Below are positions 6,337 to 64,000 of a stretch of DNA of 64,000 nucleotides, piece by piece. The stretch spans positions 35,349,756 through 35,413,755 of the forward strand of contig NC_069135.1 of assembly GCF_026914265.1 (NCBI RefSeq), read 5' to 3'. The notes below the pieces were generated by a model. The model made no database searches, was not told the origin of the DNA, and saw nothing but the letters and a program-made list of their open reading frames with translations. The position numbers were made by a program, and so were the translations under genes. This DNA is from Mya arenaria (taxonomy: Eukaryota; Mollusca; Bivalvia; Myida; Myidae). Each line of letters starts with the position of its first letter. Positions within the stretch are counted from its first letter, which is position 1.

Positions 6337-7230
6337 GTGTTCTCTTGTAAAACTTTAGAGCTTCTATAACCAGCTTTTCTCAGATTCCGTATCTGCGCAA
6401 ATGGACTGAGGCCCGTAATAATTCACGGTAAAGAAATTTAAAGTGCTGCACAAATATTTGCAATACGAGGTAAAATTTTTATTCAAATTTAAAAAAGATG
6501 ATACATTCCAGATTTGTTTTCCGAAGACGGGTAAACAAAACTACTTAATAATTTCAAATAATATGGCGAATACATGGTGACTCAATGAACTATGCATTTA
6601 CTTCCGGTCAGTTAAAGTCGAATCCTTTTGGGATTTCATGACACTGTTAATGATGACGCTATCTACAACAAAAACAACCATTGTTTCATGATTGTAGATT
6701 AAGTTCCTCTATTTTATGCTTTACATTATTACATCTGTTTAAATTGTTCACTCAGTCGAAATTTACAGTCTCTACGTCGGGGCCTCTTGTTCGATTTTGC
6801 TTGCTGGTTTTGCCGTGTTCGTTAAGTTGGAGGAATCTTTGCCAACTGAAGAAGGCAATTCTTTATTACGAATCAAAGGAATCTGAAAAGTTCTTGATGA
6901 ATTTCAAATTGAATAACAAGCTTGTTGGTGAGATAAACTGCTTTCCATGTTGTATTCCGGATGTTTTTTTTTATAACACTATAGTTTTGTCGCAATTGCC
7001 ATGACTAAAAAGTGATTCATCTTGATTGTAAATAGGTTTGCAGCTGCCGTGAGAAGGATAAATGCTAATTGTGCATGGAAGGCATAACATGAATCATAAT
7101 CCTTACAGTACTGTTTTAAATCCATCATGTTTTCTATGAAACTCGTGAGAGAGAAAAAAACACAGAAATTAAGAATTATCCTCTATCTGTTTGTATTTTT
7201 TTTTATATTTTTATCATATATTTATAATTT

Positions 7231-7270
7231 ATAAGCCCTGATGAGCTACAAGCGAAACCGGTCGGCGTAT
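7231..7270 (+). ncRNA. hammerhead ribozyme motif
   Basis: The conserved core is present in order: CTGATGA, a 3-bp stem II (GCT/AGC) with an ACA loop, GAAA, a minimal helix III (ACCGGT), then the cleavage triplet GTC. Stem I closes it: ATAAGCC before the core can pair with GGCGTAT after GTC, 6 of 7 positions. This is the minimal type with a very short helix III, known from Penelope-like elements and small retroelements of animals. It lies on the strand opposite to the Penelope-like fragment 1.3 kb away, so it may belong to another insertion. Activity is not shown by sequence. Confidence 0.7.
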
Positions 7271-7805
7271 TACCGAAAAGAATACCAATGTGATGTTACT
7301 TTTTTATTATACATAATATATATATATTATTTTTTAACCATTAACTTCATTTTAGACCTACTATTTTAACACTTTTCTAACATGTTTTTTTTTTTTATCA
7401 ACTTGATAGATATATAAAAACCGTAAAAATGGTAGCGTTCTTTAAAAGTTAGTGAATACCGTGTAAATAGTATTCTTAACGCTAACGAGTGTTTACCTTA
7501 CGCTTTTAAATTTACGTGCAGTACTTCGGTACATTGCACATTGATAGTAACAGTATGGCAATAAATAAAACTGTTCTTTTATGAAAACAGAAGCGTAACA
7601 TTTCAGGACGATTTTAGCTCCCTTCGGTATAAGCATGTTGTTACCTAATGTTACAATTATTTCGCTAAAAACGTTTTGAAACGCTAGCAATATGCTCAGA
7701 CGTCATGCGCGAGCTGTTGGGTTGCCTATTTATGGACACTATCTTTAACCGTATACTGTCGACCTTCACTGACACGTTATATATTCAGTGTGTGTATACC
7801 ACGTG

Positions 7806-8252
7806 CTAAATAACGTCATAAATGCTACGTCGGAAGGCAACATTTTGCTTGAAATATAGACTTAAATCAAAGATAACTTTTCGTCCACTACAATATTTTA
7901 ATTTAAACAAAGGGCAGTCTATGCCGCTTAAAGAGCCCCGCCTTCGTTTATTTAGCGAAGTTTGATAAGGTGATAATAAGGTCAAACACTTTGACAAACC
8001 TGTTTCCAAAATAATGTTTTGATTGTGCTCCGTCAGACGACCGTATTGTAAAATGGTTTGTCGAAGTGTTCTAAGAAACTAAACTCTCAATCAAAAATTC
8101 TGGTAAAAGACCGAAGGCGGGGCTCCGTAAGCTGCGTAGACTGTGCTGTATTTCATTTCAAATGGTGAATAAATAGTGAAGTTACCTTTGTTTAAAGTCT
8201 TTATCCGAAGCAAATATTTCATTCCGACGTAGCATTTATGACGCAATTGATC
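7806..8252. mobile_element. degenerate foldback element
   Basis: Two diverged inverted arms. ATAAATGCTACGTCGGAA near 7,818 faces its reverse complement near 8,220-8,240. Further in, GGGCAGTCTATGC near 7,912 and AGCCCCGCCTTCG near 7,935 have inverted partners near 8,105-8,140. The arms are about 150 bp each around a centre near 8,030. This is typical of a non-autonomous foldback or long-inverted-repeat MITE. No protein is encoded and target duplications are not clear. Confidence 0.5.
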
Positions 8253-8599
8253 ACGTGATATACACATACTGACATTGCTTCGTATATTAAATTTAGTTGT
8301 GCGCGTTTCAGCTACAGCCATGTATAAAAAGTATGCATTAAGCCTTCTATGTTTCCACTATTGACAAATCTAACTAGTTTAATATTAATCTTGATGTTCA
8401 CATTTTATCTAGCCTTAAACGTTGCCACTATTTCAAACTTGAGTTCGTCTTTGACAAAGACCAACGGCACACTACAAAATATATGTACATCAAAGTACAG
8501 GTATAGCATTAATGTTGCGCAGTGTTTAGTTATCAATTACAACCATAAATTATATTTTACTGAATTTCATAAAGAGTTGTTTCTGAATAAGTGATGATT

Positions 8600-9105
8600 T
8601 AATCTACACTTCACAATTTTACTACTCCAAGCGGATATGGAGTTTGCACGCGTTTAATCCAGTCAAGTTTTGCGGTGCATCTTGCTTTGAATTTAAAGGA
8701 ATTATCTTCTTTATCTGTAAATGATATATGTCCTACTGGATGAATCGTTTATACTTCAAAACTATGTCCGGTCTTAAAAAATGAAGGAGTTATTATTCGT
8801 TTTGATCTTATAAACATGTTCTCTTAATTAGGCTTTCAATGGCCTCCTTGTCTGTCCTACATACTTTATTTCAGAAGTATCCACAATTAAAGTTAGGACA
8901 TATATAATATTAGATGATTTTCAAGAGACTTTTTCCTTGAGTAAACAATTAAACGTTTTATTGTCTATGGAAGCGGTAATATGTGGGCTATTTTGAAGCA
9001 AAGAACAGCAGACACATTTCCCAGAATTGCACGAAGGACTTTTAGGTAACAAGCCACGCCGTAACTTTCGCACTGTTGATAGTTGTATTGGAGAGACTAC
9101 CACTC
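8600..9105 (-). mobile_element. Penelope-like element fossil, GIY-YIG part
   Basis: On the minus strand the reading shows a cysteine-rich segment (CNSGKCVCC) followed by a GIY-YIG-type nuclease signature (IIYVL, then KYVGQTRRPLK and a REH). This order is typical of the C-terminal part of Penelope-like retroelements. No reverse-transcriptase part was recognised next to it. The copy is short, broken in several places and looks old. Confidence 0.65.
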
Positions 9106-9719
9106 TTTAATTCTTTAATGAGAAAGGTTTATTATTTGAAACTGTATTAGAACTTACTCGACAAGTATTAGCTATAGATGCAAATTCAATCTACGAATTT
9201 TTACTATAAATGTCCTTTTAAACAAATCAGAGAAATAATGTTGAACGTTAACGGAGCCTGCATACTAGGTATAGGTTTTTAGTTGCTATTCATTAATTTT
9301 GGTAAGAATAGCCACCTACTTTATAGAAACGTTGTAGAACATTGTTAAAAAACTATGTTAAGGATCACCGATAATCGACGTAACTATACATGCATAGACA
9401 CATTAGGGTAGGGTCATGGAAAGATAAATGCAGTCTAAAAACTAATTAGTGATTACAAATACAGTCATATAAAGTGAATACATGAAATTAAAACTAAGTG
9501 ACTAGAAAAATGTAATAAAACCTTAGTATATACAAGGTATTCAAAAAGGATACGACTATTTAAACTTAAAGCTACCGTTTTCAGTCTCTGTAAAACTGGA
9601 AATTATGAGAACATTATGAAATAATGAGAAAGTGCGGGGCGACTTTTTACAGCTTCCAATGAAAACAGTGAGGCTGCCGATTATTTCATCAAAATTAATA
9701 GTTTATGATCAGATATATG

Positions 9720-11190
9720 TCCTGGTTATTTGAGTCTAACAAAATCCCTCTTATTTTGTCAGTCATCGTACATTGCCAGCAAAAGAGAAGTCTCATTCAA
9801 TCAGGCCTTAACGGCTCTTCGTCCAACAACGTGCTGTGCTTTGTTTTGTCCACACCAAAATGAGTCAAGGAACTTGTTTATAGTGTCACAGACAAAATTT
9901 GTGAAAGATACATTCTAAAGTATAGCACGGAAGGAGTTTGTGTTAACATTTTTAAACAAAATGAACACAAAAAAGAAGTAAACATCATTGGAAACCGAAT
10001 TATTCATGCCATTTTGGTAGGTACAGGTTATCTAACGAAACCCAGCAAAACTGCAGAAACTCTAAGCAGTTGTTTTTTTTTCAGGGAAGGGGCTGATGTT
10101 TGTGGATTACCCACAAGCCGGTAACTTTCAATTCAACGTAAATTTACCCATAATAATGAGCCACTGTGCCAAAGAAGAAACAATCCCATGTGATCATGTC
10201 CTTTCGATTACACGAGGACAAAAATCACTACGTGCACTCTATGTATAAATTTAAAGCACCGTCACGCTGTGAAGAATGCCGATGTTGATGTTTGGACCAG
10301 GGGCCAGTTTCTCTAAAAAGTAAGAACAAAAAGCTCTTATTTTACATTTAACTTGATTATCTTAAAAAAAAAGTTTATAAGTCTTCAAACTATTCAAAAT
10401 AAGAATAGAATACAAATTATAGCAAAATTAATACTGTGAGCTCAGCTTGTTATTGTTATCGGGATCAAGATTGTTCGAAAAAGTAGGACCTAGAGCCGTC
10501 CCTTCGCACCCTGAAGAAGCTCGTCTTCTTCATAATCTGCACCCTCTTCTATCCTCTTGGGACTTCGTCTCACATCCTCTTGGACTTCTCACCCACAATA
10601 ATGCGCGTTTAGGGATCTTTTTTTAACATTTGGATATTCATTTTGTTCCCTAAACGCCACAAGTCACTTGAGCAGTACCAATGTAAAATATATTCTTCAA
10701 CTATAACTCCACAATACTTAACACTTCACTGTTAAATTAAAACACAAATAGTACACTTTAATTATTTTAGTCAATACCTTTAATTTATTACACTTAAGTG
10801 TTTTATGAAACACAAATAATTAGTGTAATTTAGATCGACTTCTGTCAATAAAGCATTGCCATTTTGAAACCATTTAGCAGGTGCCCGTTATCTTTTCGCT
10901 CAATATACTTAGCGCTGGGATCTGTCAATCTTGGCTAAGAAAACAACAAGTGGGTTATGGACTCGTAGAGTCGCCAAATCAAAAATATATTTTTATATGG
11001 ACTAATAACTGGCTAAGACATAGGTGAAAATATAACTATTGCGAAATGTTCAGACTCCGAAATATATCAAATTCACGAACTCGTTTTAATGAATTACTGT
11101 AAAACGTCCAATAATGTATGTTCTCCTGTATAGAATTCAGATACAACTTGTATCGTCGAATTTATCGAAAATGCCATTTAATGTCTAACA
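9720..11190. repeat. duplicated C1q 5' flank and AT-rich spacer
   Basis: Positions 9,720-10,080 align with 17,810-18,190, and 10,200-10,290 aligns with 18,645-18,735, in the same orientation. They are shared flank of the C1q unit, here belonging to gene B. The rest (10,300-11,190) is AT-rich with no gene seen. Confidence 0.5.
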
Positions 11191-11771
11191 TTCAAGTATT
11201 CGATGAATAGCGTACAACAGCAATGGCCTTTCAGTGGAATCAGTAACGTTCAGTGATAGTGTTCATAAAGCCTCTAAATCATTTATTTACTTAAGTGAAA
11301 GTTTTATTAATACGGTCCCAGGCTATTATCAACCAGACAGGTTGACAATCTGGTAGTGTTGTACATGTTTAAAACTTCATCAAAATTGGCTTGGTGCTGA
11401 GGTTTGTACGTAGGACAGTTGATTCGGGTGGTTCGTAGAATAATGACTTTATTTGATGCTCGATCACCAATAAAATGACATCATACATGTATATGTTTTC
11501 AAATCAATTTTATTTTATATGAATACCGAAAATCTCGGAGAAGTCGTACAATTTACTTCGTATTCAGTGCATTTTATTTAATGCATATACAAGCATGACT
11601 AAATTTTCAGTTCGATATATTCATTGCGTTGATTTAAACAATTGTGGCCATTCATGATTCTCCTTTTATATAACATTTGCTTTATATTATCTTAATTGTT
11701 CATTTTAAACATAATGACGAATTACACGACATTGTATTGAAACTGTGAGAGTATTACTTTTTACATATTTA

Positions 11772-12041
11772 TTTTCTACGATAAGAATCACTTAAGAACA
11801 GGTCTGTCCTGTTTCCTGATAGACAATATATCCACAGTTTCTCGTTCTGCAGCAAAAAAACCACGGCACAATCAGCCGCCATGCACACAGAGTATTGTCC
11901 GTCAAACAGAGAACACTTTTTCACAACGACGTCATCCTCTTTCAAAAAAGCATAGAGCCAGGCTTTAGACTGATTATTGCAGAAGTGTGTTGAAAAGAAT
12001 TAGACCCCGGAGTCGGGCGCCGTGAAGAGTCCTGCACCACT

Positions 12042-12044
<3 letters not shown>
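11772..12044 (-). pseudogene. C1q remnant D, truncated
   Basis: The minus strand still resembles exon 2 of the C1q genes. The pieces matching the C-terminal half (NERLWI-like, KENDVVV-like, SGVYFFS-like and FTAP-like regions) occur in order from about 12,040 down to 11,772. The upstream part of exon 2 is replaced by a (GA)n run, and no exon 1 follows. The reading is damaged by substitutions and small indels. It is a dead fourth copy; its downstream flank matches the 3' flank of the intact units. Confidence 0.75.

Positions 12045-12129
<85 letters not shown>
12043..12129. repeat. (GA)n microsatellite
   Basis: About 43 GA units, almost pure. It sits exactly where homology of the C1q remnant to exon 2 stops, so its growth or a break within it may have truncated that copy. 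The long Glu-Arg and Leu-Ser open frames across it are translation artefacts. Confidence 0.95.
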
Positions 12130-12130
<1 letters not shown>

Positions 12131-12131
<1 letters not shown>

Positions 12132-14450
12132 TGTGTACTTTCCAGACTCTCACTTAAGACGAACATCTAAAATGGTAGGGCATCAACATTCTGATGATGT
12201 TGTCATTGTCTTATTCTCATCTAAAAGCTTACTTTGCATTAGTCTGACATCGTTCCAGGCAAGCTCCGGCTAATCGGATAATGTTGCCATTGTATTAAAC
12301 TCTTCTAAATGATAACGTTATAGTAGTTGTCATCTGTTCATGCAGACAAACGTCGGGCAATCGAATAGTGTTAACATAATATTAAACTCTTCTTAAGATT
12401 ATATTGCGAACGTATTATACGTCTGAATTTGACCATGCAAGTTAACTTGAATTGTTAAATTATTTACTTATTATGATTAGTTTTATAACCAGATCCTGTA
12501 GACCTGTTCAACAAACGTTCGACCACTGCTATTTTTTTGTGGACAACATAACAATCACATATTTCATATTTCATTGCAAGTGTTTACAAACTCAAATTAA
12601 AATAGTGCTGGTGTTTGCATTGTTTTCAAACATTATACGTTGCCACGTTTGACAAACTCGAATAAAATACGTGCATGTCTTGTTTGTGTGCAATTTATAT
12701 TTTTTAAAATGCTTACATACATCAATTATTCCACCTTCATGGTATTTTATACAAATATATTGAATTCAAGTGGAAGTGTTATCTTTTTAATGAGATATGT
12801 TGGAAGTAAGAAGTTAAGTTATGAATAAGTAACTTATAATAGAATGTTCTGTTTGTAACTGTATAGTTTTAACGACATTAACGACTTTCCAGTGTCCTTC
12901 CATCGGACCAAATATTCATACAACTCATACGCATAAAATATATTTGAGTTTTATATAATTGAATTTAACTTGTGCAAAACAATGTATCGGCTGTGGAGCT
13001 CGAACCACAAGGAGCTTAATATTAGCTAGACAGGTTGCATACTGTCGGCTTGTAAACTTGATAATGTACACTCCTCAATAATGCAATGCCTTTAAAATCA
13101 TCGGGATCAAAAGAAGCATTTTTAACTTTTCGATTGTTACAAAGGCAAGCGATGTCTAAGTATCAGGTCACCTTAAAACTATAATGTTATTAATTATGTG
13201 ATTTCATATTAGCCTAGTTATTTGTCCGAGGTTAGCTTCATTTGCCTGAGCCCGATATCACCTAATTAATAAGTATTTTATTAATTAACTATTACCATTT
13301 TGGTTAAAAACATTCTTATAACTTACCTTTAGTTCACATTGAAGCCGTAATTATCCATTTTCCATTGATGGTGTCAGTCTGCTTTTCTAGACTTGACTTT
13401 GCTAATTTTGGCATGTATCCTTAAAGTGACATTGCACATATTTATGAATAAAGCACTGTACATTGTAAGGAAGCATGTCTTTTCGTCTTACTTTCGTAAA
13501 TCGTTTGTTAAAACGTCAAATGTTTCACCTTCGTCGTCCATGTTGTTGGTGTATAAAATCATAATAGTAAAATCCACCAACGGGTTAAATACAACTGTAA
13601 TATCAAACCGTACAAAGTGGTTCAATCATTCAATAGGTTCAAGTATTCCAAATAGAGTTATACGAAGCACAAAATTTTCATAACAGTCGGAAAACGGAAA
13701 ACAAAATGGCTACCTTCAAAATATTTCCAGCATATTTCTCATATTAGGCGACTTTCGACAGCCAATGAAAATGGCTTATTTCTCAAATCCTATATTAGGC
13801 GAGTTTTGTAGCCAATAAAAACGGAGGAAACCCATATTAGGCGAGTTTTGTTGATATTGGCCGAGTTTGGTCGATATTGAGCGAGTTCTGGCATATATTG
13901 TCTTCAATTGTCTGGTATTGGTACAGCAATTGTCTCTGTATCACGTCAAATACGTAACAGTTGATTAATAACACGTCGTATAGACATGGTCCACCTGTTA
14001 TATTTGATATAATTACCGGTTTGGAGTCACCCTCCACAAACATGTTAGATATGGGTAATGCAGAACAGTTCATACACTTCTAGCTTACATTTGGTTTGGA
14101 TATTTTATTATTAACAGTATATGATATGTTTTATTTCTTAATTGCAAAACTAATCTCTATAGAAACTGACGAACGCGATTATAGGAGCCGGGCCCCTACT
14201 TGGTGAAACACCGACAGCTTATCGAGAAGAAAAGGCTACGTGGAGGGATTCGTCATGGACCCTTACTCCGAGAGTGACAAAAAACATAGGCATCAAACGG
14301 CACTACAGCAAATCCAGCCTTTCGATAAGACACTGGTATATTAAAATTTTACATAGCACCTCTTCTTATAAATAGCTCAAATAAAACGTTTTACTGAAAA
14401 AATACATTAACATTTTATATTGGCATTCGTCGACAGGTAAAAAAAATCGT
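12131..14450. other. gene-free spacer
   Basis: AT-rich, with no exon I can support. Near 13,741-13,885 a short motif with core ATATTAGGCGAGTTTTG recurs three to five times at about 40-50 bp spacing, in degenerate form. A GC-richer stretch at 14,184-14,340 is open in one plus-strand frame but matches nothing I know. Confidence 0.4.
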
Positions 14451-15923
14451 TCATGCTAGTATTTTTCTTCCTTTATACAATTCAGACTTCGTCGAATATG
14501 TCGAAAGTTCCGGGCAAGGCGCCCAGCATGGTATCCTTTCAACGTTCCATAAACAGCGTCGCTTACAGCAACGTCGTTCTTTCCGTGGAATCCAACGTGT
14601 GCCCAACCAGTGCTAGTGGCGATCTGATATAAATGTGGTGCATGATTACAACTAAGTGACATCTAGGTTAAACTATTTAAAAGGCTAGTTCAGCCTACCT
14701 TCGAGAAGCTAACGCTATCGTACAACATCTGACTAAGCGAGCTAACTCGGGATGATCATGTTCATGTATTATATAACATGCTAACGCTTTATCCGGTATG
14801 GTTAAACGGAGCTTAGAAATTTACCATATTGGCACTCTCTGTAATTCTTTCGATTCGAAACATTTGCCCTGATTTCAATAATATATATGGATGTTCTTCA
14901 ATATTTAGGAATGGATTAGAAATCTCAACATCTGTGTTTCAAACATGGATACTATACATATAAAAATACCTGTACGATTGAGATATGTTTCACACAAGTA
15001 AATGTTGTTTTTGTTTTATCTTACACCGAAGTTGAACAATGTTTCTGTTCCTGTAATGTTTACAAAAAGTCAATTCAATCGGCGTAAATTGGAACATTGC
15101 GTGAAAAACCATATGTCGTGTCATCATTTTGGTGACGATATTTCAAAACAGTTCAACCCACCATACTTAACGCATCGTTATGTTTAGTAAAGCAATACGG
15201 GAACCAATATCTATAAAAACTTAAAAAGCAGTAAAGATAACAAAACAGCAGTGAAAATAATATGATACTTCATTCGCACAATTCAATTTCTTATTAAATT
15301 GAGATTGTTAATGCAAATGAGCGACACATATATCGTCTTCGTGAATAATAAGAACTAACGTTCCTGTTATAAACGAGACACCCAAAAGGTTTCTGCTAGG
15401 CTTCTCAAATTATAAATGAAGAATGACACCACGTTCTAAAGAAGAATTCACAACAAGGGGACAAGCTGTTAAACATTTTGATCGACTTGTTTGTGTGTTA
15501 TCAAACTACAAACTACCAAATAAATTTCAATTTCGTTTTAGGCGCCAATGATTTCTTGATCAGGTTCACATATTTAACATTATTTTTCTTATCTTCAACT
15601 TCACTGTGTACAATACATCAACGGAGGAGCACCGGAACACTCAGAAAAGTTGTACAATTCACTCATTTTTCTGTAAATATTTATTAGAAATCCACACATA
15701 AACGTGCGTGCATTGGCTAAATATGCAATTCGACATTTTTCTTTAAGCATGCATCTGTGGTCATTGATGATTCTCTTTTTGTTATATGACTTGATTTTTG
15801 CTTTATTTGATCTTTATTGTTGATTTAAAACAGTATGCCGCCGACACATAACACATTGGGTTTTCACTATATCTTTGATATCATAAAGATAATATGCATA
15901 ATGACATTTTAACATTACACGTT

Positions 15924-16219
15924 AAAGCTGCACTATCACAGATAAACCGTTTTGACAACTTTTGTATATGTTTTTGTCTTGGAATGAGCCTAATTTTACG
16001 TAAATATCTGCAATCCAGTGATATATGACTGCTGACAAAAAATCAGATCGCAGACTTTCATATTTCTGTTCGAAAATTAATGTTTTATCGCTAAAAGCGT
16101 TACTAACGGTTTAAGAAAAATGCATAAAACATCAATTTTTGAACTTAAATATGAAAATCTGGTGCGTCCCAAGATAAAAAATAGTTGTTAAAACAGTAAA
16201 TCTGTGAGAGTGCCGCTTT
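15924..16219. mobile_element. MITE with about 35-bp terminal inverted repeats
   Basis: The ends are AAAGCTGCACTATCACAG and, inverted, AAAGCGGCACTCTCACAG; pairing continues through a GTTTT(G/A)ACAA block. The element has no coding capacity. The same site is empty in the 3' flanks of C1q genes A (about 200) and B (about 4,988), and filled in the right-arm copy (63,058-63,323). It therefore inserted after the units split and before the arms were made. Confidence 0.8.
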
Positions 16220-16438
16220 GATGTTATTCAGATGAATAAATACAAACTTTGAATGTGTTCACTTAAGACAAATATCAAAACACCTATAAGTTAACTGTAC
16301 ATTACACTTGGGCACTTGTAAACGTAAGTAGGTAGGTACTACCAGATGATCAGAGCCTTACTACAACACTTCAACATATGATACTGTTCGTTATCCTTTA
16401 CGTAATCCACCCTCCCAGCATGTACAATACCCTACTTC

Positions 16439-17310
16439 CTATGGGTATCCATTCACTTTGTGGAGCAAGGCCCCAGAGAAGGAACTTTTACGATAAGAAT
16501 TACTGAAGAACAGGTCGTCTGTACTTCCTGATCGACACTCTATCCACAGTCTCTCGTTCTGCAGCAGGAGAACAACGGCGCTCACCGTCTCACACACGTA
16601 CTCTTGGGATTCATACTTGACACCCTTTACCACAACGACGTCGTTCTCTTTCATGAACGCGTAGTACCAATGCCTAGCTAAATAAAGACAGAAGTGTGCG
16701 GAGAAGAAGTAGACCCCAGAGAAGGGCGCCGTGAAGATTCCTGCCCCACTGTCGTACGCCTCCCCGATATTGAATAGAGGATTGCTGAACACGAGAACCT
16801 GGCCCGTAGCCAGTGACTTGTCCACAATCGTGTGAGCATTGAACGCAACAACAGTGTCTGAAACAGAAATATAATGCAAGATTACTGCACTCGGGGACCT
16901 GGCTTTTAGCCAGTGCCTTGTGCTTTGAACGCGAGGATCTCTTATAGAAAAGTTAATTTACATTTCAGGACTTTGTATTCGTACAGTTGTTTTGAAATTA
17001 AAATAATTTAAAACGAAATAAATTTAGTTTGGAAACGTGAAATACCTGATTTGTTTATGTTTTCAGTAAAATACGTCTGCAGAGCCCCGACCGTCTGCTT
17101 CATAGCATTCATGTCACTTAGACCGGAAGTGACCTGGTTACGCGCCTGCTGCATCTCCTTGTGCATGGCCTCCACATTAAGCTCCATGCGCACCATTTTC
17201 TCGAGCAGTTGCTCCACTAGGGAGAGCCACGACTGCGGCTCCACCGGAAGTGAGGCCGCCAGCCAGACGCCCGCAAACACAACGATCAGCTTTGCAAGTC
17301 TGTAAGCCAT
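16439..17310 (-). CDS. secreted C1q domain-containing protein C
   Basis: Exons 17046-17310 and 16439-16857 (265 + 419 nt) join in phase to give 227 residues. Residues 1 to about 19 are a signal peptide (MAYRLAKLIVVFAGVWLAAS). About residues 27-88 form a short amphipathic helical region (SWLSLVEQLLEKMV, EAMHKEMQQA) that could drive trimer formation. Residues 89-227 are the C1q domain (VVAFNAHT, GVYFFSAHF, SSFSGALLH). A TTTATAA box on minus at 17345-17351 lies about 35 bp upstream of the ATG. An upstream in-frame ATG (MRHFLLC) lies beyond that box, so I prefer this start. Exon 2 carries LARHWYY and QEYVC like gene B, whereas the right-arm counterpart carries SGRGWHF and QAGVC. Predicted role: soluble innate recognition protein; ligand unknown. 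Confidence 0.9.
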
Positions 17311-17344
17311 GTTTTCTCCTTTCAAGATACAGAGCGACTGCCGG

Positions 17345-17351
17345 TTATAAA
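17345..17351 (-). promoter_or_regulatory. TATA box of C1q gene C
   Basis: TTTATAA about 35 bp upstream of the ATG implies a very short 5' UTR. The box is conserved in the right-arm copy and altered to TTGTAA in broken gene A. Confidence 0.5.
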
Positions 17352-18899
17352 GTTCCGAGTTGTCTTCCTGAGCACATAAGCTGAGGCCCATACATAGCAG
17401 GAAGTGCCGCATTTAAGAACTGAGTTGTACATGAGCCAAACATTTTAGCTCTTGAACAGGTCTTTTTTCAGCTTTAGACAAGTAAATGATAGCAATACTG
17501 ACGTGATATACGCAGAGACCATCACTTTAATAAATTGTTCATTTAAGTTTGCTCCAAAAATATAAAAGCTTGATATTCAAAAACGACTCGATGCAGATAT
17601 CAAAATGCAACGTACCGGGCCTCTTCTCTTCGTGTGCGGGTATTTTGCTTATTTTGCCAGGAATCTTTGCACATTAATTTGCCAATCTAGCTAAGGTAAA
17701 TATTTTGTTAAAGTGTTGATTCCAAAGGATAAAAACAGTATGTGAAATTGTGCTCATCAATTTTATAACACATGCTCATGTGTTTATGACTAGATCTATC
17801 TCCTGGTTTTCTGAGTTTTAAAAAATCTCTCACATTTTGCCAGTCATCTCACATTAACAGCAAAAGAAACGTCTCATTCGATCAGACCTTAACGGCTCTG
17901 CATCCCACAACGTGCTTGGGTTAATGTCCCATCAAAATGAGTTAAGGAACTTTGTTTATAGTGTCACAGACAATAAAATACAATTCAAAAGTACAGCACG
18001 GTCAGCGTTTGTTTTTACATTTATAAACAAAATGAACACAAACAAAGAAACTAAACATTGGAAACCGAATTATTCATTGCTATTTTGGCTATTGGGCTTT
18101 CAAAAATGAATGTCGTGCCAGCGACATTGGACATTGGACATACAAAAGTGAAATTACAACAATTATAATAAACAAACTGCGGAAACTCTTGGCATGTGGT
18201 ATTTTAAGGGAAAAGGCAGACGTTCGTAGATAACCCAAAAGCAGAAACCAATTTTCAGTTGATTTTTTTTCGGATTCGGGGCTGGCGTTCCTAGTTAACC
18301 CACAAGCTATAATCAATCTGCTGTATTCTTAAGGTTTTACCAACAAGGGTTAAAAACCTACCTACTGTAGGTTCAGGCGAGGCTAGCGATCCAAGTTTCC
18401 CGCAAGCAGTAACCGATTTGCCATAATTTTAGTGCGGGGCTAGAAGTTTTAGTTTAACCACCACTGCGATTTTTTTCATTTAAATCCCTCCGATAGTTTT
18501 GATGATTTCGTGCTGACAAACTTTGAGGTGACAAAATCCAATATGGCCACCAATATTTTGAATGCAATCGGAAAACTTTTTATGCAGCATAAATTTACTC
18601 AATATGTTAAGTCACTGAGCCAATAAAGAAAAAAGTCCATGCTATCATGTCTTTTACATTACTTGAAAACAAGAATCTCTACGTACACTTTATGTATAGA
18701 TTTTAAGCACCGTAACGCTGTGAAGAATATCAGGTGCACATCATTCCGTTGTAAGTGCACAACATTGCTTGGTACATGTACTTAAAAACGAATGTCGTGT
18801 AAGACACGTTGGTCATTCAAAAATGAAAGTCGTGCGCTGGACAACAATTTATTCTCTGAGGTTTACTTCGACCTGTTCACAAAATGACCGACTCTTTTT

Positions 18900-19100
18900 T
18901 AATATCATGTCCAATGTTGTGCCAGCACGACTTTCACTTTTGAATGTCCAATGCCCCATGTCGTGCTGGCATGACATTCATTTTTGAAAGCCCAATGTCC
19001 AATGTCTTGCCCGGATGACATTCATTTTTGAATGTCCAGTGTCCAATGTCTTGCCAGCACAACTTTCATTTTTGAATGTCCATTGTCAAATGTCGTATGT
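18900..19100. repeat. minisatellite, about 45-bp unit
   Basis: About four tandem units built from TTTTTGAATGTCCA, ATGTC and GCCAGCACGAC in alternating order. A single related unit lies at about 18,106-18,145. The array is present in the right arm at about 60,180-60,370. GACATTGGACATTC-type steps let it fold on itself. Open frames across it are artefacts. Confidence 0.75.
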
Positions 19101-19438
19101 TTAGCTAACTCCACACAGCTACATGCATATGTATAACAAACTTAATATTCGAGCGATACACCTTTTGCTACTTACTACATAATGCATTTATGGAAAATAT
19201 TAATTACTGATAACAATATTGTAACCGTGTATTTACTAGCTGGAAAAGAAAAAAAAGCAATTGATTTGTGAGTGCTAAAACATTTACTGTGATATACTAT
19301 AGTCTCATAAGGTAGAAATACCATGGTTTCTGCACCTCTCTTTCAAATTAAACTCGTTATCCTTTATAAGAACCATTATTTACATCTTTTCATCCTTTAA
19401 ATTTTAGAACAATTGTGTGTTTTTTTGGTTAATCTTAT

Positions 19439-19555
19439 TTGGGAGTAAGAGTGCATCTCATTAAAATCATATCGTGACGTTTACTTCATTTCATTACGTA
19501 ATGAAGCGTGTATTGAGGATCTGATTTTAATGAGATTGGGAGTAAGAGTGCATCT
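19439..19555. repeat. hairpin insertion between 20-bp direct repeats, left arm only
   Basis: TTGGGAGTAAGAGTGCATCT occurs at 19439-19458 and again at 19536-19555. Between them ATCTCATTAAAATCA and TGATTTTAATGAGAT form an inverted pair. The right arm has one copy of the flanking repeat and no insert near 59,820. Confidence 0.75.
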
Positions 19556-21649
19556 TAAATGGAATATGGTCATGTAATTTTTTATTGAAACTACAATCCT
19601 AGTTATAAATTTGGACTGCACATATCAGTTACACGGTAAGTGGTGACCTCGGCTTTGGAGCTCAGAGTATGAATGCTTTGCTCAACATATCTTCCAGTGG
19701 TGTTTTATAATTCTATGAAATCCGAATATAAACCCATCTGTAACAATAGCACACACACAATATTGCAAAGAAACTCGATTGGACTTCATTGACCAACAAA
19801 ACTGCTATTTTTTTTCCTTTATCTTTGAGACGAGAGTACGAAATCACATAATGACAATTATATGCCTGACACGTTGGTCCAATAGTGAACTATAGTTCTG
19901 TGTGTAACATTGTGACTATAAATCATTATTTCAGTACACATGATGGCCACAAATTCTACGCCACCACAAACACCACAGTCTCAATAATACCTCGATTTTC
20001 TGGGCAAAACACTGACGAGAAATTAAAACAAAATCGTACATGTATTTCGTACCTTTATATTTTACATATGAAATAATCATGGTCATTTAACAATGTGCCA
20101 ATATAAACAAACCTCATTTATACAATCACTCAACCATTTCTGAACGGTAGTTTTTTGCGTCATATGATTAAAACTTCATCAAAATCACTGTGAACACCAG
20201 GAAGAGTCGGAATACTCTTAAGAAAAATTAACAAAAAACACTTACTAAAACATTTAAAGTAAAATGATTGAATAAACTAACTCCTTTTATGTATGATTGT
20301 ACAAATGTGAAAGCTGACCAGCTTTTCCCACTATCAATGAACATGTATGCTAGAACATGCACATGATTTTCTGTGTTCTCAATATATGACATGAAAATGG
20401 GAGATAACGTGTTCACAGTGTTGCTCTATATACATAATAATCTATTTTGTTTATCAAAAACATGGTAATATGTATTATAACATTTAATGATTATGCCATA
20501 TAACTGACAAGCCTCGCATTAAAGACCTAGACTTCTATCCAACTACTCATTTTGTAATCAAGAAGTGACCCCTAGCCATATAACTAATGACAATTTAAAT
20601 TTCTACTACTTAAAAGAAAAAGAGAAATGAACACCGATAGTCACCAATTATCTCTCAACAATGACTTCATTTACACATTTAGATGTCTAAGGCCGTATAA
20701 ACTTATTAATTTACAAACTACAAAAAAAAATCGAAAAAAAATCCAAGATGCTAGTATTCGATCAAAAGCCATATCCAAATAATAAAAAATATCACTGTCT
20801 TTTTTAGAATATTTCTCACACAAAGGATAGCTTAAGTAACATATATTTTTCAAGCATTTGAGGGCTGGGAGTTGAGCTGTATAATGGTCAATTAGACCAT
20901 TATGTTGATACAGGAGGCTCTTCTAAGTGTTTTATGGGTTTACTGAGTATTTGTTCAAACTAAGATGTGTTAACATTAAAATATGCATCACTTTAAATAT
21001 GCATGTACATGTATGTACAGAAATCCCCTATATGCATGGGCAGTGTCATAGATTTGAAAAACACACACAACATATCTGTATTTATAAATGATTTTGGTCA
21101 AACTTTTTGAAATTACTCCTTAATTTATTTAAAGCAATAGAAATCGTACGAATAACTGAGGGCTATTCCATTTTAACATAAAACCAATCCTTGGAATTGG
21201 ACTGTTGCATTTAGATTCTTTTTAAAATTGTTGTAGCAAACCTCCCCTTTATATTTATTCTTTGGGATGGGCTGGGTTGTATGTTTAAATCGAATAGCCC
21301 TAAGAGACCCTGATTTAAAAGCATAAAATTACAAATACATGATTGCACATTCCATATTTACAGAGTACAGATTTCAATCGGAGGGAACATTATTTGCTTC
21401 AATTATATCATTTTGGTACTAGAATTTTTTCATGATATGACAAAGTAATATTTCAATAATTTTAAATTTAAATACATGTATATACTCTGTGAATGTTCAA
21501 AGCAGCAATGTCAATAATTATGAATGTCACAAGTTTTTCACGGCAACCTCAACAGAATACTTCACGAGTAGCGTGGAATATTCTACATTTCATTTTTTCA
21601 CATTTTCACAATAACTCTATATCTCTTCAGAAATATTATAAGTAATTCC

Positions 21650-21655
21650 TTTATT
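21650..21655 (-). terminator. Rab7 polyadenylation signal
   Basis: AATAAA on the minus strand, 104 bp past the Rab7 stop codon. It is conserved in the right arm at 57716-57721. Confidence 0.6.
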
Positions 21656-21758
21656 TAATTTATGGACAGATGTCGCTCACAGAACTTTGGTTGTGGTGCC
21701 TCACGAAAGCATGATCACTATTTAAAATCAACAACAACAACAAGTAGTCATTGGCAAA

Positions 21759-26737
<4,979 letters not shown>

Positions 26738-56271: not shown

Positions 56272-56557
56272 CTGAAATAATTGGAACATAATCTTATTCT
56301 TGTGTTGAAACCCATGTTAGTGAAATATGCAATGATATTAGTAATCGTTCTTTGATATAAATGTTGTTTATTTTTTCATGCAAAATAATATTCTCCTCGT
56401 ATTACAATCAGTTTTTAATCGCCAAAGGTCAAAAGTATCATTTTGTCTGATTTCCAGCACAACAGCTATAATTGAAATTAATCTGTAGATTTTCACCTCA
56501 GCTACATTAACAAGTACATGTACCTGTATTTAAGCTCTCCATTTTCCCATATTTCAG

Positions 56558-57612
56558 ATCTGGGACACGGCGGGTCAGGAACGTTTCCAGAGTCTGGGTG
56601 TGGCATTCTACCGTGGGGCTGATTGCTGTGTACTTGTGTTTGACGTCACTATGCCCAACACATTCAAGTCCCTTGACAGTTGGCGGGATGAGTTCTTGAT
56701 ACAGGCCAGTCCGAGAGACCCAGAAAACTTCCCTTTTGTTGTCATTGGAAACAAGATTGATTTGGAAAACAGGGCTGTATGTATAAACCAGTGTTTGTTG
56801 ATGTCCTATTAAGTATTATATTATGAGCAATAGATGAAATCAATACTGTCAAAAATATTTTTATACTGATTGAACAAATAACCAAGACGTAATAGACAAA
56901 AAATGGATATTTCCTCTGTGTTTTATTATGTTATAAAATAATTGTCTTATTTTAGACAACAATATACAATCCAACCTGTATTAAGTGGCCACCTTTGGGA
57001 AAGGTCAAAGTGGCTGCTTAAGACAGGGGAGGGGGCAACTTGAACGCTTAATGCACATACTTTATATAGTAAAAATGTTTTGGGGGGTATTTGGAGTTGT
57101 TCGATAAGGCAGGTGGCCATTCAAAACAGGTGACCATTCAACCAGGTTTGACTGTACGCATGTAGACTGCAGGTAAAAAACTGACTTTCTGGAATGGTTA
57201 TTTAACTGGAGCTCCATCTTGCTACTGCACCAATATTGTCCATATATGCTAATGCCAGCTCAAGCAAGTGATATATTCTTTTCTTATTTAAACACTTAGT
57301 TAAAATTGTTCACTCTACAATCTGATTTATTTAAGGTATCTGCAAAGCGAGCTCAAGTTAAAATTGTTCACTCTACAATCTGATTTATTTAAGGTATCTG
57401 CAAAGCGAGCTCAAGGATGGTGCCATTCGAAGGGAGACATTCCCTATTTCGAGACGAGTGCCAAGGAAGCCATCAATGTAGAACAGGCCTTCCAAACCGT
57501 TGCCAAGAATGCACTGTCCCAGGAAACGGAGGTGGAACACTACGAATTCCCCGACCAGATCCGACTTAATAACGACCAGAATAAGCAGAGCCAAGGAGGG
57601 TGTGGCTGCTGA
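56558..57612 (+). pseudogene. RAB7A: Rab7 3' half, 5'-truncated copy
   Basis: Exons 56558-56776 and 57394-57612 encode residues 61 to the end ([10 protein letters not shown] to GGCGC) with a protein identical to the full gene. One synonymous difference was seen (CTG versus CCG-context change near 57,500). Both splice sites, the 58-bp acceptor duplication and the AATAAA at 57716-57721 are kept. Exons 1-2, with the P-loop and switch I, are missing: upstream is FAM120 in the opposite orientation. Without them it cannot encode a GTPase. If the join is an assembly error, this would instead be part of the other Rab7 allele. Confidence 0.9.
56965..57156. mobile_element. MITE, right-arm copy of 22,223 element
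   Basis: Inverse of the left-arm element with the same ends (TACAATCCAACCTG and GGTTTGACTGTA). It moved with the duplication rather than inserting anew. Confidence 0.65.
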
Positions 57613-57721
57613 TTTGCCAATGACTACTTGTTGTTGTTGTTGATTTTAAATAGTGATCATGCTTTCGTGAGGCACCACAACCAAAGTTCTGTGAGCGACA
57701 TCTGTCCATAAATTAAATAAA

Positions 57722-60700
57722 GGAATTACTTATAATATTTCTGAAGAGATATAGAGTTATTGTGAAAATGTGAAAAAATGAAATGTAGAATATTCCACGC
57801 TACTCGTGAAGTATTCTGTTGAGGTTGCCGTGAAAAACTTGTGACATTCATAATTATTGACATTGCTGTTTTGAACATTCACAGAGTATATACATGTACT
57901 TCAATTTAAATTTATTAAAATATTACTTTGTCATATCATTAAAAATTTCTAGTTCTAAAATGATATATTTAAAGTAAATAATGTTCGCTCCGATTGAAAT
58001 CTGTAGTCTGTAAATATGGAATGTGCAATCATGTATTTGTAATTTTATGCTTTTAAATCAGGGTCTCTTAGGGCTATTCGATGTAAACATACAACCCAGC
58101 CCATCCCAAAGAATAAATATAAAGGGGAGGTTTGCTACAACAATTTTAAAAAGAATCTAAATGCAACAGTCCAATTCCAGGGATTGGTTTTATGTTAAAA
58201 TGGAATAGCCCTCAGTTATTCGTACGATTTCTATTGCTTTAAATAAATTTAGGCGTAATTTCAAAAAGTTTGACCAAAATCATTTATAAATACAGATATG
58301 TTGTGTGTGTTTTTCAAATCTATGACACTGCCCATGCATATAGGGGATTTCTGTACATACATGTACATGCATATTTAAAGTGATGCATATTTTAATGTTA
58401 ACACATCTTAGTTTGAACAAATACTCAGTAAACCCATATAAAACACTTAGAAGAGGCTCCTGTATCAACATAATGGTCTAATTGACCATTATACAGCTCA
58501 ACTCCCAGCCCTCAAATGCTTGAAAAATATATGTTACTTAAGCTATCCTTTGTGTGAGAAATATTCTAAAAAAGACAGTGATATTTTTATTATTTGGATA
58601 TGGCTTTTGATCGAATACTGGCATCTTGGATTTATTTTCGATTTTTTTTTGTAGTTTGTAAATTAATAACTTTATACGGCCTTCGACATCTAAATGTATA
58701 AATGAAGTCATTGTTGAGAGATAATTGGTGACTATCGGTTTTCATTTCTCTTTTTCCTTTTAAGTAGTAGAAATTTAAATTGTCATAAGTTATATGGCTA
58801 GGGGTCACTTCTTGATTACAAAATGAGTAGTTGGATAGAAGTCTGGGTCTTTAATGCGAGGCTTGTCAGTTATATGGCATAATCATTAAATGTTATAATA
58901 CATATTACCATGTTTTTGATAAACAAAATAGATTATTATGTATATAGAGCAACACTGTGAACACCGTTATCTCCCATTTTCATGTCATATATTGAGAACA
59001 CAGAAAATCATGTGCATGTTCTAGCATACATGTTCATTGATAGTGGGAAAAGCTGGTCAGCTTTCACATTTGTACAATCATACATAAATGGAGTTAGTTT
59101 ATTCATTCATTTTACTTTAAATGTTTTAGTAAGTGTTTTTTGTTAATTTTTCTTAAGAGTATTCCGACTATTCCTGGTATTCACAGTGATTTTGATGAAG
59201 TTTTAATCATATGACGCAAAAAAACTACTGTTCAGAAATGGTTGAGTGATTGTATAAGTGAGGTTTGTTTATATTGGCACATTGTTAAATGACCATGATT
59301 ATTTCATATGTAAAATATAAAGGTACGAAATACAGGCACGATTTTGTTTTAATTTTTCGTCAGTGTATTGCCTAGAAAATCGTGGTATTATTGTGGCTGT
59401 GGTGTTTGTGGTGGCGTAGAATTTGTGGCCATCATGTGCACTGAAATTATGATTTCTAGTCACAATGTTACACACAGAACTATAGAACACTATGTACTAA
59501 TGTGTCAGTCATATAAGTGTCATAATGTGATTTCGTACTCTCGTCTCAAAGATAATGGAAAGAAATAACAGTTTTGTTGGTCAATGAAGTCCAATCGAGT
59601 TTCTTTGCAATATTGTGTGTGTGCTATTGTTACAGATGGGTTTATATTCGGATTTCATAGAATTATAAAACACCACTGGAAGATATGTTGAGCAAAGCAT
59701 TCGTACTCTGAGCTCCAAAGCCGAGGTTACCACTTACTGTGTAACTGATATGTGCAGTCCAACTTTATAACTAGGATTGTAGTTTCAATAAAAAATTACA
59801 TGACCATATTCCATTTAAGATGCACTCTTACACCCAAATAAGATTAACCAAAAAAAACACAATTGTTCTAAAATTAAAAGGATGAAAAGATGTAAATAAT
59901 GGTTCTTATAAAGGATAACGAGTTTAATTTGAAAGAACGGTGCAGAAACCATGGTATTTCTACTTTATGAGACTATAGTAAATCACAGTAAATCTTTTAG
60001 CACTCACAAATCAATTGCTTTTTTTTTTCTTTTCCAGCTAGTAAATACACGGTTACAATACTGTTATCAGTAATTAATATTTTCCATAAATGCATTATGT
60101 AGTAAGTAGAAAAAGGTGTATCACTCGAAATTTAAGTTTGTTATATATGTGTATGTAGCTGTGTGGAGTTAGCTAAACATACGACATTTGACAATGGACA
60201 TTCAAAAATGAAAGTTAAGCTGGCAAGACATTGGACACTGGACATTCAAAAATGAATGTCATGCGGGCAAGACATTGGATATTGGGCTTTCAAAAATGAA
60301 TGTCGTGCCAGCACGACATGGGGCATTGGACATTCAAAAGTGAAAGTCGTGCTGGCACGACATTGGACATGCTATTAAAAAGGAGTCGGTCATTTTGTGA
60401 ACAGGTCGAAGTAAACCTCAGAGAATAAATTGTTGTCCAGCGCACGACTTTCATTTTTGAATGACCAACGTGTCTGGCACGACATTCGTTTTTAAGTACA
60501 TGTACCAAGCAATGTTGTGCACTTACAACGGAATGATGTGCACCTGATATTCTTCACAGCGTTACGGTGCTTAAAATCTATACATGAAGTGTACGTAGAG
60601 ATTCTTGTTTTCAAGTAATGTAAAAGACATGATAGCATGGACTTTTTTCTTTATTGGCTCAGTGACTTAACATATTGAGTAAATTTATGCTGCATAAAAA

Positions 60701-61925
60701 GTTTTCCGATTGCATTCAAAATGTCTTATTGGTGGCCATATTGGATTTTGTCACCTCAAAGTTTGTCAGCACGAAATCATCAAAACTATCGGAGGGATTT
60801 AAATGAAAAAAATCGCAGTGGTGGTTAAACTAAAACTTCTAGCCCCGCACTAAAATTATGGCAAATCGGTTACTGCTTGCGGGAAACTTGGATCGCTAGC
60901 CTCGCCTGAACCTACAGTAGGTAGGTTTTTAACCCTTGTTGGTAAAACCTTAAGAATACAGCAGATTGAATATAGCTTGTGGGTTAAACTAGGAACGCCA
61001 GCCCCGAATCTGAAAAAAAATCAACAGAAATTTGGTTTCTGCTTGTGGGCTATCTACGATCGTTTGCCTTTTCCCTTAAAATACCACCTGCCAAGAGTTT
61101 CCGCAGTTTGTTTATTATTATTGTTGTAATTTCACTTTTGTATGTCCAATGTCGCTGGCACGACATTCATTTTTGAAAGCCCAATAGCCAAAATAGCAAT
61201 GAATAATTCGGTTTCCAATGTTTAGTTTCTTTGTTTGTGTTCATTTTGTTTATAAATGTAAAAACAAACGCTGACCGTGCTGTACTTTTGAATTGTATTT
61301 TATTGTCTGTGACACTATAAACAAAGTTCCTTAACTCATTTTGATGGGACATTAACCCAAGCACGTTGTGGGATGCAGAGCCGTTAAGGTCTGATCGAAT
61401 GAGACGTTTCTTTTGCTGTTAATGTGAGATGACTGGCAAAATGTGAGAGATTTTTTAAAACTCAGAAAACCAGGAGATAGATCTAGTTATAAACACATGA
61501 GCTTGTGTTATAAAATTGATGAGCACAATTTCACAAACTGTTTTTGTTCTTTGGAATCAACACTTTAACAAAATATTTACCTTAGCTAGATTGGCAAATT
61601 AATGTGCAAAGATTCCTGGCAAAATAAGCAAAATACCCGCACACGAAGAGAAGAGGCCCGGTACGTTGAATTTAGATATCTGCATCGAGTCGTTTTTGAA
61701 TATCAAGCTTTTATATTTTTTGAGCAAACTTAAATGAACAATTTATTAAAGTGATGGTCTCTGCGTATATCATGTCAGTACTGCTATCATTTACTTGTCT
61801 AAAGCTGAAAAAAAGATCTGTTCAAGAGCTAAAATGTTTGGCTCATGTACAACTCAGTTCTTAAATGCGGCACTTCCTGCTATGTATGGGCCTCAGCTTA
61901 TGTGCTCAGGAAGAGAACTCGGAAC
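57722..61925. other. right-arm spacer, no gene seen
   Basis: Counterpart of 17,352-21,640 in reverse. It contains the minisatellite at about 60,180-60,370. No exon is supported. Confidence 0.5.
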
Positions 61926-61932
61926 TTTATAA
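61926..61932 (+). promoter_or_regulatory. TATA box of right-arm C1q gene
   Basis: TTTATAA about 35 bp upstream of the ATG at 61967, as in gene C. Confidence 0.5.
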
Positions 61933-61966
61933 CCGGCAGTCGCTCTGTATCTTGAAAGGAGAAAAC

Positions 61967-62838
61967 ATGGCTTACAGATTTGCAAAGCTGATCCTTGTGT
62001 TTGCGGGCGTCTGGCTGGCGGCCTCACTTCCGGTGGAACCGCAGTCGTGGCTCTCCCTAGTGGAGCAACTGCTCGAGAAAATGGTACGCATGGAGCTTAA
62101 TGTGGAGGCAATGCACAAGGAGATGCAGCAGGCGCGTAACCAGGTCACTTCCGGTCTAAGTGACATGGATGCTATGAAGCAGACGGTCGGGGCTCTGCAG
62201 ACGTATTTTACTGACAACATAAACAAATCAGGTATTTCACGTTTCCAAACTAAATTTATTTCGTTTTAAATTATTTTAATTTCAAAACAACTGTACGAAT
62301 ACAAAGTCCTGAAATGTAAATTAACTTTTCTATAAGAGATCCTCGCGTTCAAAGCACAAGGCACTGGGTAAAAGCCAGGTCCCCGAGTGTAGCAATCTTG
62401 CATTATATTTCTGTTTCAGACACTGTTGTTGCGTTCAATGCTCACACGATTGTGGACAAGTCACTGGCTACGGGCCAGGTTCTCGTGTTCAGCAATCCTC
62501 TATTCAATATCGGGGAAACGTACGACAGTGGGGCAGGAATCTTCACGGCGCCCGTCTCTGGGGTCTACTTCTTCTCCGCACACTTCTGTCTTTATAGCGG
62601 TAGAGGCTGGCACTTCGCTTTCATGAAAGAGAACGACGTCGTTGTTGTAAAGGGTGTCACGTATGACGGTCAAGCTGGCGTGTGCGAGACGGCCAGCGCC
62701 GTGGTTCTTCTGTTGCAGAGCGAAAGACTGTGGATAGAATGTCGATCAGGAAGTACAGACGACCTGTTCTTGAGTGATTCCAATCGTAGAAGTTCCTTCT
62801 CTGGGGCCTTGCTCCACAAAGTGAATGGATACCCATAG
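61967..62838 (+). CDS. secreted C1q domain-containing protein C' (right arm)
   Basis: Exons 61967-62231 and 62420-62838 join in phase to 227 residues. Signal peptide MAYRFAKLILVFAGVWLAAS is followed by the helical stretch SWLSLVEQLLEKMV to about residue 88 and a full C1q domain (VVAFNAHT, GVYFFSAHF, SSFSGALLH). Exon 1 and the first 160 bp of exon 2 are nearly the same as gene C. From CLYSGRGWHF onward about 20 residues differ (VTYDGQAGVC, LFLSDSNRRSS), and these resemble broken gene A instead. No frame breaks. Predicted soluble innate recognition protein; the changed part would alter the domain surface, an inference not tested by structure. It is either a second locus or a divergent allele of gene C. 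Confidence 0.9.
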
Positions 62839-63057
62839 GAAGTAGGGTATTGTACATGCTGGGAGGGTGAATTTCGTAAAGGATAACGAACAGTATCATA
62901 TGTTGAAGTGTTGTAGCAAGGCTCTGATCATTTGGTAGTACCTACCTACTTACGTTTACAAGTGCCCAAATGAAATGTACAGTTAACTTATAGGTGTTTT
63001 AATATTTGTCTTAAGTGAACACACTCAAAGTTTGTATTTATTCATCTGAATAACATC

Positions 63058-63323
63058 AAAGCGGCACTCTCACAGATTTACTGTTTTAACAACTATTTTT
63101 TATCTTGGGAAGTTCAAAAATTGATGTTTTTCTTAAACCGTTAGTAACGCTTTTAGCGATAAAACATTAATTTTCGAACAGAAATATGAAAGTCTGCGAT
63201 CTGATATTTTGTCAGCAGTCTTATATCACTGGATTGCAGATATTTACGCAAAATTAGGCTCATTCCAAGACAAAAACATATACAAAAGTTGTCAAAACGG
63301 TTTATCTGTGAGAGTGCAGCTTT
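63058..63323. mobile_element. MITE, right-arm copy of 15,924 element
   Basis: Same terminal inverted repeats and site as the left-arm copy, with an internal deletion of about 30 bp relative to it. Confidence 0.8.
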
Positions 63324-64000
63324 AACGTGTTATGTTAAAGTGTCATTATGCATATTATCTTTATGATATCAAAGATATAGTGAAAACCCAATGTGTTATG
63401 TGTCGGTGGCATACTGTTTATCAACAATAAAAAATCAAATAAAGCAAAAATCAAGTCTTATAACAAAAAGAGAATCATAATGACCACAGATGCATGCTTA
63501 AAGAAAAATATCGAGTTGCATATTTAGCCAATGTACGCACGTTTATGTGTGGATTTCTAATAAATATTTACAGAAAATGAGTGAATTGTACAACTTTTCT
63601 GAGTGTTCCGGTGCTCCTCCGTTGATGTATTGTACACAGTGAAGTTGAAGATAAGAAAAATAATGTTAAATATGTGAACCTGATCAAGAAGTCATTGGCG
63701 CCTAAAACGAAATTTTAAAGAAATTGAAATTTATTTGGTAATTGGTAGTTTGATAACACACAAACAAGTCGATCAAAATGTTTAACAGCTTGTCCCCTTG
63801 TTGTGAATTCTTCTTTAGAACGTGGTGTCATTCTTCATTTATAATATGAGAAGCCTAGCAGAAACCTTTTGGGTGTCTCGTTTATAACAGGAACGTCAGT
63901 TCTTATTATAAGACGATATATGTGTCGCTCATTTGCATTAACAATCTCGATTTAATAAGAAATTAAATTGTGCAAATGAAGTATCATATTATTTTCACTG

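Follow-up and report, generated by a model that had tools for sequence, protein, structure and literature searches.

Probable ectopic gene conversion of a variable-loop tract between C1q genes in an inverted duplication of the bivalve Mya arenaria

Introduction

This locus raises the question of how two C1q genes of the bivalve Mya arenaria, C and C', which lie in the two arms of an inverted duplication, came to differ strongly over about 200 bases of their second exon. The window, that is, the whole stretch of DNA analysed, comprises 64,000 nucleotides (contig NC_069135.1, C14:35349756-35413755). Its preliminary description had attributed the divergent patch to gene conversion, with C resembling a neighbouring gene B and C' resembling a broken gene A, and had suggested that a pseudogene might have donated sequence to a functional recognition domain. 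Gene conversion is well known in tandem immune families. Bivalves possess hundreds of C1q genes, whose diversity is credited to duplication and positive selection in PMC6835236, where the binding face of bivalve C1q is described as virtually unknown. According to PMC8905726, sC1q-like type 2 is the largest C1q class in Mercenaria mercenaria. Genes of this type combine a signal peptide, a coiled coil and a C1q domain. Among the titles and opening parts of abstracts listed in our searches of the open-access literature, none described gene conversion for the C1q genes of bivalves.

Results

The 200 kb around the window contain 16 copies of C1q exon 2, spread over about 161 kb; truncated C1q fragments (e.g. 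region 36796-36529, 92341-92514 and 149203-149341) were left out of this count. A mechanical check found both exons open in 10 of the 16 copies (g3, B, C, C', A', E, g11, g12, g15 and g16), the remaining six being g1, A, B', F, g2 and g14. B' is broken by a 4-base deletion located outside the patch and F by a 4-base insertion, while exon 1 is defective in g2 and g14. Four of these copies (B', A', E and F) are situated beyond the window, and it is they that decide the patch question. The arms and the main gene models are as follows.

1720..22972, minus strand: left arm of the inverted duplication, in pieces of 94.9-98.7% identity, holding exon 1 of A and genes B and C
56407..64000, plus strand: in-window part of the right arm, which extends outside the window to about 78776, with B' and exon 1 of A'
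61967..62231, plus strand: exon 1 of C', open, with ATG and a donor at base 265
62420..62838, plus strand: exon 2 of C' with stop, C1q domain, AG acceptor, open to the stop (PF00386, 63.7 bits)
17046..17310, minus strand: exon 1 of C, open
16439..16857, minus strand: exon 2 of C with stop, C1q domain (PF00386, 65.7 bits)
6078..6336, minus strand: exon 1 of B, open
5208..5626, minus strand: exon 2 of B with stop, C1q domain (PF00386, 67 bits)
417..835, minus strand: exon 2 of A, interrupted in frame by a stop at codon 89

All PF00386 scores are to be read against a cut-off of 23.7 bits. From the sequence, C and C' are each predicted to consist of two exons separated by a single 188-base intron, with donor and acceptor sites present. 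Exon 1 of C' has, by eye only, a signal-peptide-like start followed by a coiled-coil-like stretch, and gave no match to Pfam.

The inverted repeat noticed in the preliminary description belongs to a more extensive inverted duplication, of about 22 kb, whose arms are separated by 33.4 kb. The left arm stops inside gene A (at window position 1720; gene A region 417-2102), with exon 1 within the arm and exon 2 beyond it, and exon 2 of A', the partner of A, is a different one. At window 11774-12041 (region 36796-36529) there is a decayed fragment of a C1q exon, interrupted by an internal stop, and a partner fragment is present in the right arm. The spacer between the arms contains minisatellite arrays at 38176-39024 (unit of about 157 bases) and 40268-41137 (unit of about 146 bases). 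A GC-rich segment at 46420-46600 resembles, by eye, part of a large-subunit ribosomal RNA; an Rfam search of 44000-52000 at gathering thresholds gave no match.

Around C and C', the two arms differ by 209 substitutions over 8037 aligned columns (2.6%). The densest 200 aligned columns are 62590-62789, with 35 substitutions, a number reached in none of 2000 column shuffles; counted by position, 62590-62790 has 35/201 substitutions as compared with 174/7836 (2.2%) in the rest. The location of the patch given in the preliminary description was thus exact. Only 3/169 substitutions separate C from C' in exon 2 before the patch, and 8/260 at 62791-63050. Within the patch, 9/200 positions distinguish C from B and 9/200 distinguish it from B', B and B' being identical throughout. 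The motifs cited for the two types, LARHWYY, QEYVC and FFSNSYRKSS on the one hand and SGRGWH and QAGVC on the other, are indeed present in the translations. The resemblance of C' to broken A also exists (17/200 differences), but F (9/200) and E (11/200) are closer to C' than A is. The GC content of the patch is 0.474 in C, 0.464 in B and 0.521 in C'.

Other divergent stretches of the arms are less dense, namely 57780-58080 (14 substitutions) and 59300-59560 (20), so that exchange appears not to be confined to exon 2. At 57780-58080, the left arm is 99% and the right arm 94% identical to a third copy, and this stretch is another possible exchange tract.

A divergence of about 2.6% is what one would expect to find between the haplotypes of a heterozygous bivalve. 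The arms could then be two haplotypes of one locus, misassembled side by side, and C and C' its alleles; high heterozygosity did shape the strategy of the Mya arenaria assembly, as related in PMC10663159. Such an artefact is nevertheless quite improbable, considering that the 200 kb contain no N, that the flanks beyond the arms differ, that an arm ends inside gene A and that more C-like blocks (E and F) are present on the right. Even then, the patch and the mosaic statistics given below would stand as the trace of an allelic exchange.

The patch also contains the most variable codons of the domain. Among the 12 of 16 copies in which exon 2 is open, the mean pairwise amino-acid difference is 0.59 in codons 58-62, 0.59 in codons 80-86 and 0.36 in codons 110-123. 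Taken together, these three hypervariable stretches reach 0.46, as compared with 0.05 in loops BC, DE and FG and 0.07 in other codons; they are about seven times more variable than elsewhere, and among 138 circular rotations the observed placement alone reached a mean of 0.46. By their order between predicted strands, the three stretches would correspond to loops CD, EF and GH. The structure model, built from three window sequences, has a mean pLDDT of 52.5 and was used for its strand order alone; a structure search with it returned C1q folds for the most part, along with some unrelated folds.

C and C' could in principle have simply diverged in place at loop codons under diversifying selection, with C converging on B. 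The presence of the hypervariable codons in the patch fits this idea, as does the episodic positive selection described for oyster C1q clusters in PMC6835236. However, the synonymous divergence between C and C' rises from 0.025 on the 5' side of the patch to 0.41 within it and is 0 on the 3' side, a jump for which amino-acid selection alone is no sufficient explanation. The corresponding values between C and B are 0.34, 0.13 and 0.29. Where C, C' and B encode an identical residue, the codon used by C is that of B in 8/11 cases inside the patch and in 0/11 outside (Fisher p 0.001); among sites outside the hypervariable codons, C is B-like at 8/11 inside and 2/20 outside (p 0.0007). Synonymous codons and non-hypervariable sites therefore follow B within the patch as well. 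Silent sites refute selection or convergence as the complete account, which we regard as very improbable, although selection may act on top of conversion.

Tract and tree tests point in the same direction. We tested 2726 triplets of 15 copies, B' being left out of both the triplet and the tree tests, and 11 triplets passed correction, the mosaic being E in six of them, C in two, A' in two and C' in one. The triplet in which C combines C' and B has a corrected p of 5.7e-4 and a tract at 62596-62789, within which 29 informative sites are B-like and 3 are C'-like; with its outer bounds, 62571 and 62819, the tract measures 194 to 247 bases. The stretches concerned are listed below.

16488..16681, minus strand: B-like tract in C, which is the likelier recipient; supported by synonymous codons and by the tract and tree tests, and equivalent to right-arm 62596-62789 via the arm alignment
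62596..62789, plus strand: corresponding stretch in C', of the type common to E and F
5257..5450, minus strand: corresponding stretch in B, representative of the donor type (coordinates from the exon-2 starts)
466..659, minus strand: corresponding stretch in broken gene A, unneeded as a donor

Inside the patch, the AU test rejected the tree grouping C with C' (5e-7) and kept that grouping C with B (0.67), whereas outside the patch the C+B tree was rejected (7e-65). For the 5' part alone, C+B was rejected (0.0097) and a group of C, C', E and F was accepted (0.70); strict sisterhood of C and C' was mildly rejected there (0.033), because C' groups with E. Of the interpretation given in the preliminary description, an exchange within exon 2 is backed by the triplet tract test, by AU tests that oppose each other inside and outside the patch and by the count of synonymous-only codons, with different nearest relatives inside and outside 62596-62789.

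A test of mismatch-free runs with 16 copies over exon 2 did not support the pair C-B' (global P 0.77), owing to the nine patch sites that separate C and B; it supported E-B (global P 0.0007) and C-E (0.012). When the 3' flank was added for 12 of the 16 copies, further runs became significant, among them A'-g16 (none of 3000 permutations) and B-C' at 62899-62959 (0.0043), indicating that the 3' flank is patchy too. We found no reciprocal product among the cluster copies, and in one assembly conversion and double crossover are not separable.

Which of the two genes was altered? Upstream of the patch, the three pairwise distances among C, C' and E are similar (C-C' 50/2337 differences, C-E 58/2344, C'-E 57/2342), and the patch type of C' is common to E and F. 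From these comparisons C is the likelier recipient, a single change in C being able to explain the pattern; in the opposite direction, the same type would need to have been acquired by C', E and F, or by an ancestor of theirs followed by its loss in C. Two results count against C as the recipient: the triplet in which C' combines C and A passes correction (0.0045), and the pairing of C' with A inside the patch is kept by the AU test (p 0.081). Both, together with the motifs SGRGWH and QAGVC common to A and C', would favour a donation from broken A to C'. Yet F and E are closer to C' than A is within the patch, and the synonymous divergence between A and C' is about equal before the patch (0.168) and in it (0.149; 0.35 after it, on 10.8 sites), so that an A-to-C' tract is unneeded. 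We rejected A as a donor to C' on these grounds, its chances being minimal, and read the C'-A signals as reflecting A as an older relative of the C'/E/F type.

The suggestion that a pseudogene donated sequence to the recognition domain of C' is not supported, as C' carries the type common to E and F, and C is the odd one, matching B and B'. The donor type is carried by B, with both exons open, and by broken B'; as the two are identical in the patch, pseudogene B' is a possible donor to C. A search of the genome itself with the patch of C returned at least 19 matches, all on this contig, among which none besides C itself was closer than B and B'.

The transfer into C is not very recent. Of the nine C-B differences in the patch, six are sites at which C has a base found in neither B nor C', and three are sites at which C equals C'. 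Between B and B', only 8 sites differ over the region windows 97450-101949 around the gene, as against 82/8559 over the arm; this near-identity suggests either that B and B' were homogenised later, or that the donor was an unsampled relative of B. At the arm rate, nine or more C-B differences have a probability of 0.036, or of 0.16 if they are counted as seven events (three adjacent ones as one), and the five synonymous differences in 42 sites have a probability of 0.002. This excess over the arm rate suggests that the transfer may be older than the present arm divergence, unless the donor is unsampled.

These figures bear on an allelic origin of the patch, in which the ancestral C locus would have been polymorphic for both patch types and the arms would have captured different alleles, the exchange being older and sorted by ordinary recombination. 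The difference of C from B in the patch, which exceeds the 2.2% arm average, and the three changes common to B and B' but absent from C would be in line with such a history. Against it, E, whose upstream distance is the same, carries the C' type up to 62719; and a relative of B must in any case have supplied the B-like type to the C lineage, so that conversion would merely have occurred earlier. We consider an allelic origin unlikely.

C is not the only mosaic in the cluster. The strongest signal is that of E (corrected p 1.5e-6), which agrees with C' at 23/23 informative sites from 62596 to 62718, then with B at 26/26 from 62720 to 62876, and again with C' at six sites to 62967; its B-type tract thus starts between 62718 and 62720. 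A' is a weaker third mosaic (corrected p 0.016). A C1q family search of the genome gave 824 candidates, of which 150 were scored and listed, and from these 150 matches we picked 28 copies in four other arrays (8 in C7, 7 in C16, 7 in C17 and 6 in C1) and compared their exon 2. Significant tract tests, corrected within each array, numbered 1/312 in C7, 0/150 in C16, 4/184 in C17 and 2/108 in C1. Loop diversity is raised in C7, where one copy is shortened by a stop, partly in C16 and C17, and not in C1. Neither tract exchange nor loop diversity is general across the arrays sampled, and no sign of a targeted mechanism was seen in the cluster or in these four arrays.

On C1, two C1q arrays (C1:35.00-35.06 Mb and C1:45.12-45.18 Mb) lie about 10 Mb apart on opposite strands and, among the matches listed, contain paired matches of equal or near-equal score, as if they were inverted copies.

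Discussion

Outside the tract, C is nearest to C', E and F, and inside it is nearest to B and B'. In one assembly from one individual, these affinities are probably best explained by ectopic gene conversion of a B-like loop tract between intact C1q genes. A B-like gene would have served as the template from which the tract was copied into C by ectopic (non-allelic) conversion. Since the tract covers codons 59-123 and so begins and ends with hypervariable loop residues, the first and the last of them, the whole variable-loop set of C may have been replaced in one step. Arm-to-arm exchange since then would have kept the flanks alike, above all in B and B'. Of the 18 residue differences between C and C', 14 fall in codons 59-65, 80-86 and 117-123, and the match between tract ends and loop ends is partly built in, because informative sites are densest in those codons.

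The CD, EF and GH loops of the C1q fold lie together at the barrel end that is distal to the stem. In EMILIN1, an integrin is bound by a loop at the apex of the trimer (PMC5225433), and residues of C1ql3 in contact with BAI3 are given in PMC12048575. Three loops that moved together in Mya would constitute a candidate binding face. It is possible, albeit on the doubtful side, that the three putative loops generally move as a unit, as cassettes exchanged in the germline that swap complete binding faces between bivalve C1q genes. If so, a gene could take the specificity of another in one step while its barrel and trimer contacts remain fixed. Moreover, should loop sets be carried from copy to copy by such tracts, exchange can be mistaken for selection by tests that presuppose a single tree for each gene.

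The Mya tract would add a further example to an established process. MHC genes are diversified by copying from related templates, and the palindromes of mammalian Y chromosomes undergo arm-to-arm gene conversion. The latter resemble the Mya locus in their inverted arms, with patchy divergence and near-identical stretches; in contrast, the source of the Mya tract is another paralogue, and its effect is to set the arms apart. Lamprey VLR and mollusc FREP, as presented in PMC13428168, also have recognition regions with parts taken from related sequences. The assembly of VLR is somatic and enzyme-driven, whereas the Mya tract was read from one assembly, in which no somatic or programmed process is shown.

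Among bivalves, the C1q genes of the clam Mercenaria mercenaria are described in PMC8905726 as arising by tandem and segmental duplication, as in Mya; the term 'gene conversion' is absent from the main text of that paper. The closest parallel is provided by the sC1q-like type 2 clusters of Crassostrea virginica, which according to PMC6835236 are likewise composed of tandem two-exon genes and recent duplicates, with a few hypervariable sites in a conserved domain; a small number of sites in the oyster genes are under positive selection. The words conversion and recombination are absent from the main text of PMC6835236, and oyster diversity is credited there to duplication, unequal crossing-over and positive selection, whereas the cluster of Mya arenaria exhibits a mosaic tract.
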